DNA of 64,000 bases from positions 2,055,227 to 2,119,226 of the forward strand of contig NZ_BMFH01000001.1 in the NCBI RefSeq assembly GCF_014638095.1, read 5' to 3'. Positions 47,666-51,401 of the stretch are shown here, piece after piece. The notes under the pieces are model-generated. The model searched no databases. It saw only the letters and a program-made list of their open reading frames with translations, and was not told the origin of the DNA. The position numbers and the translations under genes were made by a program. This DNA comes from Muriicola marianensis. GTDB lineage: Bacteria; Bacteroidota; Bacteroidia; Flavobacteriales; Flavobacteriaceae. Each line of letters starts with the position of its first letter. The stretch's first letter is position 1.

Positions 47666-47673
47666 TATTTTTG
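47666..47673 (+). promoter_or_regulatory. Candidate -7 box of the tetR-ABC-hlyD-tolC operon
   Basis: TATTTTTG (TAnnTTTG), 24 bases before the tetR ATG, immediately after the second AAGTAATACT repeat. Confidence 0.55.
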
Positions 47674-47697: not shown

Positions 47698-48372
47698 ATG
47701 AAACATCTCTTGCAGACCATCAAGATCGAGGTCAATAACAAGACCTATGTGAAGGATCCGGAGTCGTCTGATCTCGGGAAAAGGATCGTTGAACACAGTA
47801 TCCTGATGATACATGAACTGGGCTTCGACTCCTTCACCTTTAAAAAACTGGGAGATAAGATCGGCTCCAACGAGAGTTCAATTTACCGCTACTTTGAGAA
47901 CAAACACAAGTTGTTACTCTATCTCACCTCCTGGTATTGGGGATGGTTGGAGTATCAGTTTGTATTTGCGACCAACAGTATTTCCAATCCGGCTGAGAAA
48001 TTGCAAAAGGCCATCGAGGTCATCAGCAAGCCGGTAGTGCTCGACGCATCCTTTTCACACATCAACGAAGTGTTGCTCAATGATATCATTATCAATGAGT
48101 ATTCGAAATCATACCTGACCAAAGAGGTTGATAACGAGAATAAGGAAGGCTATTTTGAGATCTACAAGCGCATGGTGATGCGAATGAAAGAGATGATCAC
48201 AGAGGTCTCTCCTGAATATCCCTTCGCGGCGAGTCTGGCAAGCACGGTATTAGAAGGTACCCTGCACCAGTACTTTCTCGTCCAGCATTTTCCTTCACTT
48301 ACGGATTGCGGTGATGAGGTTACACCCACAGAATACTTCACGGACCTTGTTTTTAAATCAATAGACAAGTAA
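47698..48372 (+). CDS. TetR/AcrR-family transcriptional regulator
   Basis: A 224-residue repressor-type protein. An unusually long N-terminal arm of about 30 residues precedes the helix-turn-helix (IVEHSILMIHELGFDSFTFKKLGDKIGSNESSIYRYFENKHKLLLYLTSWYW). The rest is the helical ligand/dimer domain, which shows no detectable relation to characterised regulators. It is the first gene of a tight operon: the ABC gene starts three bases after its stop. It most likely senses a compound exported by the system, or membrane stress. The ligand is unknown. Confidence 0.9.
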   Translation: MKHLLQTIKIEVNNKTYVKDPESSDLGKRIVEHSILMIHELGFDSFTFKKLGDKIGSNESSIYRYFENKHKLLLYLTSWYWGWLEYQFVFATNSISNPAEKLQKAIEVISKPVVLDASFSHINEVLLNDIIINEYSKSYLTKEVDNENKEGYFEIYKRMVMRMKEMITEVSPEYPFAASLASTVLEGTLHQYFLVQHFPSLTDCGDEVTPTEYFTDLVFKSIDK

Positions 48373-48375
48373 GAA

Positions 48376-50043
48376 ATGGCAAAGACTGTACTCACGGCCT
48401 GGCAACGTCTGCTCGGGCTTTTGAAATTGGATAAAAGGGATATTTTCCAGATTTTTTATTACGCGATCTTTGCGGGATTGGTAAACCTGTCCCTCCCTCT
48501 TGGGATACAGGCGATTATAAATCTCATCCAGGGAGCGCAGATCAGCACTTCATGGATTGTACTGGTAATTCTCGTGACCCTGGGTGTGGCTTTTGTGGGC
48601 GTACTGCAGCTCATGCAGATCAGGATTATTGAAAACGTGCAGCAGAAGATCTTTACCAGGGCATCTTTTGAATTCGCCTACAGGTTCCCCAAGATAAAAC
48701 TCAGTGAACTGAGAAATTTCTATCCCCCGGAACTGGCCAACAGGTTTTTTGATACCCTGACGGTTCAGAAAGGTCTGGCCAAGATCCTGGTAGATTTCCC
48801 GGCCGCACTGCTGCAGATCATTTTTGGCCTGATGCTGCTCTCTTTCTACCACCCGTTCTTTATCATTTACGGATTTCTGCTTCTCTTTTTGATCTACCTG
48901 GTCTTCAAGTTTACAGCTCAAAGAGGACTGGAGACCAGTCTTGAAGAATCAGAAAACAAATACAAAGTGGCTCACTGGCTGCAGGAGGTGGCCCGGTCTA
49001 TTCTCAGTTTCAAACTTTCCGGCAAGACCAGCCTGGCCATGGACAAGAATGATGCGCTCGTAGAGAAATACCTGGAAGCAAGGGAGAGCCATTTCCGAAT
49101 CCTCGTGATACAGTTCATACAGATGATCGGGTTTAAGGTGCTGGTAACCGTCGGACTGCTTCTCATCGGAGGTATCCTGGTGCTTAATCAGGAAATGAAT
49201 ATCGGTCAGTTCGTGGCCGCCGAGATCATCATTCTCTTGGTCATCAACAGTGTGGAGAAACTCATCCTGGGTCTCGAGACCTTCTATGATCTGCTGACCT
49301 CTCTGGAAAAATTGGGGCAGGTAGTAGACAAAGACCTCGAGCCTATCGAAGGCGAAAGACCCTTTAAGGAGAACGAATCCTTCCACGTGGAACTCAAAAA
49401 TGTGGAATACGACATTCCGGGAACCAATATCCCTATTATCAGGGATCTGTCAATGACGATCACCCCGGAATGTACCATACAGATCAAAGGGGAAAGCAGT
49501 TCCGGCAAATCAACCCTGCTGAGGCTTATCGCCGGGATCATTGAACCGGACAAGGGTATGATCTATGTGAATAATGTGTCTTTAAAGCAGATATCCCTGA
49601 ATTACTACAGGTCGCACATAGGGCAATCCCTGACAGAAGAGTCTCCTTTTGAGGGAAGTATCCTCGAGAACATCACCTTTGGAGACTCCTCCATTTCCGA
49701 TGAGGATGTGTACTGGGCGCTGGATAAGACCGGACTCACGGATTTTGTCAAAGACCAGCCTGCAGGATTAAGAACTATGCTTTATCCGGAAGGACAGCAG
49801 ATCCCTTATGTAGTGGGTAAAAAGATCGTACTGGCAAGAAGCATCGTTCGCAAGCCCAGGCTTCTTATCCTCAAGGATCCCCTGGACCATTTTAATCCGA
49901 CTGAGGCAGAAAAGATCATAGATTTTCTGTCAGACAAGTCTAACCCCTGGGCGCTAGTCGTGGTAAGTCAGAACTCGAGGTGGACCAGGAAGTGCAACCG
50001 CATCATTACCATGAAAGCCGGCCAAATCATTAACGAAAGCTAA
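48376..50043 (+). CDS. ABC exporter-like protein with degenerate ATPase domain
   Basis: A 555-residue half-transporter. The first 310 residues form the exporter membrane domain with about six helices, beginning DKRDIFQIFYYAIFAGLVNLSLPLG. The ATPase domain keeps Walker A (GESSSGKST, 372-380) and a Q-loop (IGQSLTEESPFEGSILENI). The signature, LSGGQ in active proteins, reads IPYVV in GQQIPYVVGKKIVLAR (473-488). Walker B ends LLILKD in place of LLILDE (aspartate to lysine at 500, glutamate to aspartate at 501). The H-loop histidine region reads VVVSQNSRW. ATP hydrolysis by a normal homodimer therefore looks impossible. hlyD follows after five bases. Confidence 0.88.
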   Translation: MAKTVLTAWQRLLGLLKLDKRDIFQIFYYAIFAGLVNLSLPLGIQAIINLIQGAQISTSWIVLVILVTLGVAFVGVLQLMQIRIIENVQQKIFTRASFEFAYRFPKIKLSELRNFYPPELANRFFDTLTVQKGLAKILVDFPAALLQIIFGLMLLSFYHPFFIIYGFLLLFLIYLVFKFTAQRGLETSLEESENKYKVAHWLQEVARSILSFKLSGKTSLAMDKNDALVEKYLEARESHFRILVIQFIQMIGFKVLVTVGLLLIGGILVLNQEMNIGQFVAAEIIILLVINSVEKLILGLETFYDLLTSLEKLGQVVDKDLEPIEGERPFKENESFHVELKNVEYDIPGTNIPIIRDLSMTITPECTIQIKGESSSGKSTLLRLIAGIIEPDKGMIYVNNVSLKQISLNYYRSHIGQSLTEESPFEGSILENITFGDSSISDEDVYWALDKTGLTDFVKDQPAGLRTMLYPEGQQIPYVVGKKIVLARSIVRKPRLLILKDPLDHFNPTEAEKIIDFLSDKSNPWALVVVSQNSRWTRKCNRIITMKAGQIINES

Positions 50044-50048
50044 CGGAT

Positions 50049-51401
50049 ATGCTCAATATTTCTCCAAATAGACTCAACAGAAAGGTAGACCTGATGCCTT
50101 ACAAGTCTTCTCAGAAGGTATTTCATGAGAGGGACCACAAGCATTTTAACCGTTTTCTGATGGTTTTTTCTTTCATCGGATTGATCGTACTGTTCCTGCC
50201 ATGGACACAGACCATACAGGGGAAGGGATACCTTACCACTTTAAATCCTGAGCACCGGCCTCAGACGATTCAGTCGCCCATACCCGGAAAGATCGAGAAA
50301 TGGTTTGTTAGGGAAGGAGATTTTGTCATGAAAGGCGATACTATCCTCTTCATTTCTGAGATCAAGAATGAATATTTCGATCCCAACCTCATCAACAGAA
50401 CCGGAGATCAGATCCGGGCAAAATCCCAGGCGGTGGTCTCCTATCAGGAAAAGGTAAAGGCCCTGAATGCACAGATCAATGCCTTGGGGCAGGAACGCAG
50501 CCTGAAACTGGAGCAGGCGAGAAACAAACTGCTGCAGGCTAAACTCAAAGTCCAGAGCGACAGTATTGACCTGGAGGCTGCCAAGACGAATATTACCATT
50601 GCTCAGAGGCAGTATGACCGGGTGGTACAGCTGCAGAGCGAAGGGCTGAAGGCCATTACCGACGTGGAGGAAAAAAGGCTTAAACTCCAGGAGACTCAGG
50701 CGAAGCTGATCTCCCAGGAGAATACCCTCCTCGCCTCAAAGAACGAGATCATAAACGCCAATGTGGAGATCAACAGGATAAAGGCAGAATACACCGACAA
50801 GATCTCCAAGGCCCAGAGTGATATGTTCACAGCCCAGTCGAACCAATTCGATTCCGAGGCCCAGGTGACCAAACTCGAGAACGAGTACACCAATTACGAG
50901 ATTCGAAGCCAGATGTACTACATCCGCGCTCCTCAGAGTGGGTATATCAACAAAGCACTGCAGGGAGGTATAGGGGAAACTTTTAAAGAGGGAGACAGGC
51001 TCGTCGGGATAATGCCTTCTGATTATGCACTGGCTGTGGAAACTTACGTGGAGCCAATAGATTTGCCCCTGATACATATTGGCGAAAAGGTACGGATTCA
51101 GTTCGATGGCTGGCCTGCAATCATATTCAGTGGCTGGCCCAATGTGTCCTATGGAACCTATGGGGGGCAGGTGGTCGCCATCGAAACGTTTATCAGCAGC
51201 AACGGGAAGTACCGCGTCCTTTTGGCTCCTGATCCGGACGACCATCCATGGCCGACAGATATCCGGGTGGGATCAGGTGCCAATACGCTGGCCCTGCTCG
51301 AGGATGTACCTATCTGGTTCGAGCTCTGGAGACAACTGAACGGCTTCCCGCCCAACTACTACCAGCCCGAGAATGGCATGGCCCAAAGCGACAAAAAATA
51401 G
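50049..51401 (+). CDS. HlyD-family periplasmic adaptor
   Basis: A 450-residue membrane-fusion protein. One membrane helix lies near 37-55 (FLMVFSFIGLIVLFLPW). The lipoyl/barrel halves are GYLTTLNPEHRPQTIQSPIPGKIEKWFVREGDFVMKGDTILFI and IRAPQSGYINKALQGGIGETFKEGDRLVGI. Between them about 170 residues form a long helical hairpin (QEKVKALNAQINALGQERSLKLEQARNKL ... ISKAQSDMFTAQSNQFDSEAQ). It should link the inner-membrane ABC protein to the TolC-like channel. The tolC gene starts two bases after its TAG stop. Confidence 0.92.
   Translation: MLNISPNRLNRKVDLMPYKSSQKVFHERDHKHFNRFLMVFSFIGLIVLFLPWTQTIQGKGYLTTLNPEHRPQTIQSPIPGKIEKWFVREGDFVMKGDTILFISEIKNEYFDPNLINRTGDQIRAKSQAVVSYQEKVKALNAQINALGQERSLKLEQARNKLLQAKLKVQSDSIDLEAAKTNITIAQRQYDRVVQLQSEGLKAITDVEEKRLKLQETQAKLISQENTLLASKNEIINANVEINRIKAEYTDKISKAQSDMFTAQSNQFDSEAQVTKLENEYTNYEIRSQMYYIRAPQSGYINKALQGGIGETFKEGDRLVGIMPSDYALAVETYVEPIDLPLIHIGEKVRIQFDGWPAIIFSGWPNVSYGTYGGQVVAIETFISSNGKYRVLLAPDPDDHPWPTDIRVGSGANTLALLEDVPIWFELWRQLNGFPPNYYQPENGMAQSDKK

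Follow-up and report, generated by a model that had tools for sequence, protein, structure and literature searches.

A TetR-associated HlyD-TolC exporter of Muriicola marianensis with an ABC fold and a degenerate ATPase domain: a candidate for transport without ATP hydrolysis

The ABC exporter protein P0001, encoded in a 64,000-nucleotide stretch of the Muriicola marianensis genome (the window), carries a nucleotide-binding domain (NBD) that keeps Walker A and lacks the catalytic residues beyond it. We consider it fairly probable that P0001 is part of a hydrolysis-free, ion-coupled tripartite exporter, with the NBD remaining as a docked, non-hydrolysing module. Across the family, the NBD decays, is lost, or gives way to a direct fusion of the transmembrane domain (TMD) with HlyD. 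This pattern suggests an energy source other than ATP for these pumps.

The gene stands in a compact operon, with the following features of the locus and of the predicted protein:

47698-48372, + strand: TetR-type regulator, operon gene 1 (PF00440, E 3.5e-7), ending 3 nt before P0001
48376-50043, + strand: P0001, ABC exporter with a degenerate NBD, 555 aa, intact frame
48376-49350, + strand: TMD of P0001, residues 1-325 (model helices; PF00664)
Residues 20-52, 59-106 and 117-158, + strand: helices TM1, TM2 and TM3 of the model
Residues 161-207, 220-270 and 276-317, + strand: helices TM4, TM5 and TM6 of the model
48700-48711, + strand: coupling helix 1, residues 109-112, a short helix in the model
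49000-49020, + strand: coupling helix 2, residues 209-215, a short helix in the model
49378-50040, + strand: degenerate NBD, residues 335-555 (PF00005, 61.5 bits; model pLDDT ~90)
50049-51401, + strand: HlyD-family periplasmic adaptor (PF13437, E 8e-11), starting 5 nt after P0001
51404-52807, + strand: TolC-type outer membrane factor (PF02321, E 2.4e-38), starting 2 nt after the HlyD stop

P0001 exceeds the Pfam cut-offs for both PF00664 (ABC_membrane) and PF00005 (ABC_tran). An AlphaFold2 model, built from P0001 together with 49 named homologues, reaches a mean pLDDT of 87.6 and a pTM of 0.76 and contains six long helices and a full NBD. Foldseek searches with this model return TM287/288, TmrAB, PCAT1 (8vox, TMq 0.91) and HlyB (8dck, TMq 0.90), and P0001 models as a complete type IV, HlyB/PCAT1-like ABC exporter fold. 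Its top NCBIfam match, TIGR03375 (LssB, type I secretion permease/ATPase), scores 180.5 bits where the cut-off is 693.1, and P0001 also falls under the cut-offs of the type I secretion subfamilies TIGR01846 (144 against 725.55 bits) and TIGR01842 (132.4 against 510.15 bits). The window HlyD scores 80 bits against TIGR01843, under the cut-off of 208.65. Genes for HlyD and TolC adjoin P0001, the arrangement of an HlyD-TolC tripartite exporter. Gene context was scanned at 220 loci for which longer flanks were available (L095-L314, with the outgroup). Downstream sequence exceeds 4 kb at 203 of them: HlyD adjoins or is fused in 198, TolC follows in 196 and both are present in 195. A TetR gene lies upstream in 80 of 202 loci.

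Two side observations concern the locus itself. The sequence TATTTTTG lies at window positions 47666-47673, 5' of the TetR gene, and fits the Bacteroidota promoter -7 motif TAnnTTTG. In the PHROGs collection, P0001 gives a good match to phrog_2392 (ABC transporter family, E 5.5e-73); phage records may therefore contain exporters related to it.

Alignment places the ATPase motifs of P0001 as follows:

49489-49515, + strand: Walker A, GESSSGKST, intact, residues 372-380 (kept in 157 of 187 clade members)
49633-49635, + strand: Q-loop column, Thr420 for Gln (alignment)
49801-49815, + strand: signature column, IPYVV for LSGGQ, residues 476-480 (phmmer alignment)
49861-49878, + strand: Walker B column, LLILKD for LLxLDE, residues 496-501 (phmmer alignment)
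49969-49971, + strand: H-loop column, Gln532 for His (alignment)

In a phmmer alignment to solved P-glycoprotein structures, the signature falls on IPYVV, Walker B on LLILKD and the A-H pair of the H-loop on S531-Q532. These placements agree with a sequence-only reading of the window, which had reported an intact Walker A, IPYVV at the signature and LLILKD at Walker B. That reading had also given the H-loop position as S/Q; the loss of the histidine stands, while the column proper is Q532, S531 being the preceding A/S. In all, the P0001 NBD lacks the Q-loop Gln, the signature, the Walker B Asp, the catalytic Glu and the H-loop His, the Q-loop loss (T420) being one that the first reading had missed. 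The A-loop column holds Ile347, a position occupied by Tyr or Phe in 106 of 187 clade members. Four canonical ABC exporters of the same genome, used as controls in a pattern search, keep Walker A, LSGGQ or LSSGQ, DE, and AH or SH. Because the catalytic residues are lost, ATP hydrolysis by P0001 is judged very unlikely.

Two technical explanations for the missing motifs were considered and rejected. The true motifs are not hidden elsewhere in P0001, because their spacing to the near-invariant R488 and P494 is fixed. A sequencing error is excluded since seven congeners share the loss.

Alignment with Bacteroidota homologues, as the sequence-only reading had proposed, finds the motif loss conserved across the family. 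Strong relatives of P0001 (E 1e-60) occur in 31 of the 60 nearest genomes, its own included, and in 82 of 246 genomes of the order; relatives at E 1e-40 occur in 149 of 295 genomes of the class and 76 of 296 genomes of the phylum, the four samples overlapping. These searches yielded 225 loci, which, less 23 outgroup loci, 8 fusions, 5 TMD-only loci and 2 loci at contig ends (L200 and L209, left out of NBD counts), leave 187 NBD-bearing clade members, with the window counted once. At least four of six catalytic features are missing in 169 of the 187: 118 members lack five, 49 lack four, 16 lack three, 2 lack all six and 2 lack two. The Walker A Lys is kept in 171 members and the strict Walker A motif in 157, the Walker B Asp in 46, the catalytic Glu in 30, the Q-loop Gln in 11, the H-loop His in 10 and the signature S..G in 4. 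The strict Walker A motif fails in 30 members, 16 of which also lack its Lys, and two loci (L107, L117) hold NBD remnants that give no ABC_tran match. Seven of eight congeners have a match, and none of the seven has the signature, the Walker B Asp, the Q-loop Gln or the H-loop His. Walker B is LLILKD in six of them and LLILNE in L017, which thus keeps the catalytic Glu. The 49 NBD-bearing proteins among the named loci (the best 80 of at least 582 related stretches) keep the strict Walker A in 34 cases, the Walker B Asp in 11, the signature in 3, the catalytic Glu in 2, the Q-loop Gln in 1 and the His in none.

Some family members have further peculiarities. One genome (G294) carries two degenerate members, L112 and L113, each with its own TetR, HlyD and TolC genes. 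At L109-L116, L119-L126, L129 and L131, the open frames run ~125-250 residues N-terminal of the TMD, lengths that are upper limits; the extensions of L109 and L110 overlap the TetR frame, and L119 has a His-rich linker. No N-terminal Pfam domain was found in the extensions of L111, L114 and L119.

The 23 outgroup proteins all keep the Walker A Lys and the Walker B Asp, with the catalytic Glu in 21, the His in 17, the signature S..G in 8 and the Q-loop Gln in none. Since the Q-loop Gln is absent and S..G is found in only 8 of 23 already in this outgroup, the decay of the NBD is, on these alignments, graded; it began before the clade and is nearly general within it. Two members of family f63, L146 and L148 (in G508 and G327), keep the Walker A Lys, Asp, Glu and His beside a signature reading FPSSF. 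This set reflects either retention or re-acquisition, and hydrolysis may thus persist or return in places.

Such rows bear on the idea that the altered site still splits ATP slowly by an unorthodox route, using a Glu at the Walker B Asp column along with other residues. Among the 148 rows with Walker A but no DE, 94 have Glu in that column, and the idea also draws on the kept Asp, Glu and His of L146 and L148, the strict Walker A of 157 of 187 members and the purifying selection on the NBD. We nevertheless hold it highly improbable, given that P0001 has Lys at this column and has lost the signature, Q-loop and H-loop residues, that the strict Walker A motif is not found in 30 of 187 members, 16 of which have lost its Lys as well, and that forms with no NBD exist.

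Selection estimates uphold the earlier view that the gene is under selection, clean in frame and no recent pseudogene. In four close pairs, dN/dS is 0.005-0.015 for the TMD and 0.039-0.062 for the NBD (dS 0.69-1.85 by region, near saturation), and the NBD values show that the intact 555-aa frame is not a pseudogene. Both domains are under purifying selection, the TMD more so, and no other part of the protein is as constrained as the TMD. Column entropy averages 1.76 bits in the TMD over all rows; in the NBD it averages 2.45 bits over the 192 rows that lack the complete Walker A, Asp, Glu and His set. Rows having the complete set, 19 in number, average 1.38 (TMD) and 1.61 (NBD). Three P-loop residues, G372, G377 and K378, rank in the top eleven NBD positions by conservation, and the catalytic columns lie outside that group. 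This pattern points to retained nucleotide binding in many family members, and ATP binding without hydrolysis, one of three options raised by the sequence-only reading, fits P0001.

Other relatives have no NBD at all. TMD-only proteins, each followed by HlyD and TolC, are found at 30 of 80 named loci; these are the best 80 of at least 582 related stretches, selected with a TMD-only query, so 30 of 80 is not a prevalence. The other 50 comprise the 49 NBD-bearing loci and L285, which is cut by a contig end and was dropped. Five TMD-only loci, likewise followed by HlyD and TolC, are in the 225-locus set, and the two sets overlap (L097, L098 and L099 with L263, L257 and L272). The TMD-only frames, 334-375 aa long, stop shortly after TM6. 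Those at named loci come from Spirosoma, Larkinella, Hymenobacter, Pedobacter, Mucilaginibacter, Sphingobacterium, Chitinophaga rhizophila and two family-level MAGs; at one of the TMD-only loci (L239), TolC is split into two frames. A TMD-only model, weak at pLDDT 69.8, contains both short coupling helices. Its Foldseek matches (TM 0.35-0.54) were too weak and were not used.

In eight loci, TMD and HlyD form single proteins of 749-784 aa, joined by a short linker, with a HlyD part homologous to the window HlyD. Pfam searches of three fusions (L100, L102, L106) find HlyD domains and no ABC_tran; ABC_membrane scores 22.1 against a cut-off of 28 in L102 and is not listed for L100 and L106. The TMD assignment is made because of phmmer matches to P0001 (160-205 bits, L100-L106) and the kept TM6 motif.

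Phylogenetic analysis bears on how often the NBD was lost. A TMD tree of 74 rows, built without the long-branch rows L115, L116, L117, L130 and L210, separates 58 degenerate-clade rows from 16 outgroup rows on a branch with 100/100 support from a bootstrap that had not settled. This tree does not reject a single NBD-less clade (p 0.125, or 0.175 without L106) or a single fusion clade (p 0.405). With TMD and HlyD combined in 38 rows, a single NBD-less clade is rejected by 179.5 log units (p-AU 1.3e-59), and the TMD-only and fusion groups, each at 100/100, nest among different NBD-bearing relatives. In this tree, too, a 100/100 branch sets the degenerate clade apart. The 38 rows, including 5 fusions and 5 TMD-only proteins with L106 left out, were hand-chosen from a 94-row TMD + HlyD tree that omits the long-branch rows L115-L118, L130 and L210-L214. 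A quick 156-row TMD tree holds 17 of the 23 outgroup proteins, the other six being near-copies (one was kept per set more than 80% alike), and is suboptimal, a constrained tree scoring 92.8 log units better. The NBD thus appears to have been lost at least two separate times on TMD + HlyD, TMD alone giving p 0.125; the L106/L234 fusion may or may not add another origin.

Heterodimeric exporters such as TM287/288, TmrAB and TAP keep one working site per dimer, and TM287/288 and TmrAB are among the best Foldseek matches to P0001. By analogy, a partner in trans could hydrolyse ATP for P0001, either as a canonical half-transporter paired with it or as a separate NBD that docks on it. Exporters combining a degenerate with a working site are known, and PMC7544095 names a missing catalytic Glu as a hallmark of a degenerate site. 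Four canonical exporters in the genome are possible partners; TMD-only forms keep the coupling helices, in the weak model, and full loop lengths, in ten proteins; and 3 of 30 named TMD-only loci (L241, L265, L286) have a canonical ABC gene in the fetched ~13 kb, with none in the other 27. A trans partner is still quite unlikely. Unlike in heterodimeric exporters, no family partner for P0001 was found in its own genome, where the one strong family match is P0001 itself (1207 bits) and the next scores 104. Only 2 of 203 loci have a canonical ABC gene in the interval from 3 kb before to 4 kb after the gene end, the coupling-helix loops are changed in six of eight fusions and shortened in five, and P0001 lacks the signature that a partner's ATP site would need. 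The existence of TMD-only and TMD-HlyD forms makes a second ATPase elsewhere, another option of the first reading, unlikely.

The coupling helices offer a view of how the NBD relates to the TMD. W201, R207 and F212, around coupling helix 2, are kept in 233, 224 and 227 of 235 NBD-bearing proteins, in 12, 4 and 4 of 30 TMD-only proteins, and in 2, 2 and 0 of 8 fusions, six of which have a gap at F212; P118, too, is often replaced in TMD-only proteins. Over the coupling-helix ranges, six fusions are more variable than six matched NBD-bearing sets (p 1.3e-5 to 2e-9, for positions that are not independent and ranges chosen after earlier looks at the data), and the TMD-only ranges as a whole are no more variable than matched sets (p 0.42-0.66). 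Of the eight fusions, five have 39-42 residues in the loop at 186-232, two have 44 and one has 47, the length seen in the window protein; ten TMD-only proteins examined have full loop lengths. Fusions combine a kept TM6 motif with eroded coupling-helix loops. We read these patterns to mean that a dead NBD of the window type would still dock on the coupling helices and that, where the NBD is gone, probably nothing has replaced it at the docking site.

The TMD itself carries invariant residues, namely E86, K132, S192, K195, Y232 and K312, across 236 NBD-bearing proteins, 30 TMD-only proteins and 8 fusions, with a few loci entering these counts twice because both collections contain the record. 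A further acid lies in TM6:

49222-49224, + strand: E283, the TM6 acid in GQFVA(A/S)E (234/236 NBD-bearing, 30/30 TMD-only, 8/8 fusions)

The outgroup has Glu at the E283 position in 22 of its 23 rows, and most outgroup rows retain the catalytic Asp, Glu and His, so this acid predates the loss of the ATPase and did not arise with it. Conserved acids of the TMD include E86, E283, E294 and D305, which could, but need not, correspond to the glutamate ladder of SbmA, and conserved charges do not prove ion coupling.

A protein constrained in this way could instead be a passive adaptor or gated conduit, whose TMD anchors and positions HlyD and allows facilitated diffusion or no transport. This corresponds to the third option of the first reading, a structural adaptor, and gains from the direct TMD-HlyD fusion and from an NBD that is dispensable in more than one lineage. 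It is unlikely, however, because the strong constraint on the TMD and its invariant charged helix residues go beyond what an anchor would seem to need, and fusions keep the TM6 motif rather than the loops.

The hydrolysis-free, ion-coupled reading that we favour would proceed in the following way. ATP hydrolysis would have been abandoned in the family at the base of its main clade or close to it, and P0001 would form the inner-membrane component of a tripartite exporter with HlyD and TolC, associated with TetR. Its TMD dimer would move substrate by alternating access with no hydrolysis, and the drive would most likely be an ion gradient, coupled through conserved charges in the helices, as in SbmA. 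The window-type NBD would fold, dock on the coupling helices and probably bind nucleotide, acting as a structural or regulatory module, and the lost signature may prevent a locked NBD dimer. Elsewhere, this module would have decayed or been deleted, or the TMD would have been fused directly to HlyD.

Parts of the literature supply precedents. As passages of PMC4979069 describe, MsbA without its NBD performs pH-driven ethidium efflux, less efficiently than the whole protein, and nucleotide held without hydrolysis inhibits MsbA transport, so a dead nucleotide-binding NBD might block rather than help. Ion-coupled transport by LmrA requires a TM6 glutamate near TM3 amides (passages of PMC6155054), LmrA-MD conducts ions, and MsbA-MD carries out ion-coupled transport (passages of PMC4979069 and PMC6155054). 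SbmA is proton-driven, and passages of PMC13316013 propose that it descends from an ABC transporter by loss of both the NBD and the coupling helices. With SbmA, MsbA and LmrA as precedents, hydrolysis-free transport by such a TMD is plausible. The MD forms of MsbA and LmrA are laboratory truncations of working ATPases, whereas the loss in the P0001 family is natural.

Among the open-licence PMC papers that the literature searches listed, none was found to describe the P0001 family. Through this family, the role of a non-hydrolysing NBD becomes testable. It also serves as a warning that an ABC exporter annotation on a Bacteroidota gene need not mean that ATP is used.

Among known systems, HlyB (8dck) resembles P0001 in its TMD and NBD fold (TMq 0.90) and in its HlyD and TolC partners. 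Unlike HlyB, P0001 lacks the catalytic residues past Walker A, and it has relatives without an NBD. According to passages of PMC11026475, the HlyB/HlyD complex contains three HlyB dimers and six HlyD, a stoichiometry compatible with the 1:1 ratio of TMD to HlyD in the fusions. Fusion fixes this transporter:adaptor ratio and could help structural work.

SbmA/BacA (SLiPT) shares with NBD-less members of the family an ABC exporter TMD that works with no NBD, and in the fusions the coupling helices are eroded as well. SLiPT proteins have neither an NBD nor coupling helices, whereas P0001 has both, the fusions coming nearest. SbmA imports, while the HlyD-TolC operon suggests that the P0001 family exports. 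Unlike in SbmA, relatives with dead NBDs survive, and the family probably has a separate origin. Conversion of primary into secondary ABC transporters is discussed for SbmA in passages of PMC13316013. More tentatively, nature may have turned an ATP-driven ABC exporter into an ion-driven transporter a second time, in the P0001 family and independently of SbmA, with the intermediates still alive. On this tentative view, the intermediates would be the competent-looking outgroup, a dead NBD with a P-loop, a dead NBD without one, a protein with no NBD and one whose NBD is replaced by direct HlyD fusion. The outcome would be a tripartite pump of a new class, ABC-folded but lacking an ATPase. If true, this would provide a second primary-to-secondary case beside SbmA, with many intermediates in named, partly cultured bacteria.
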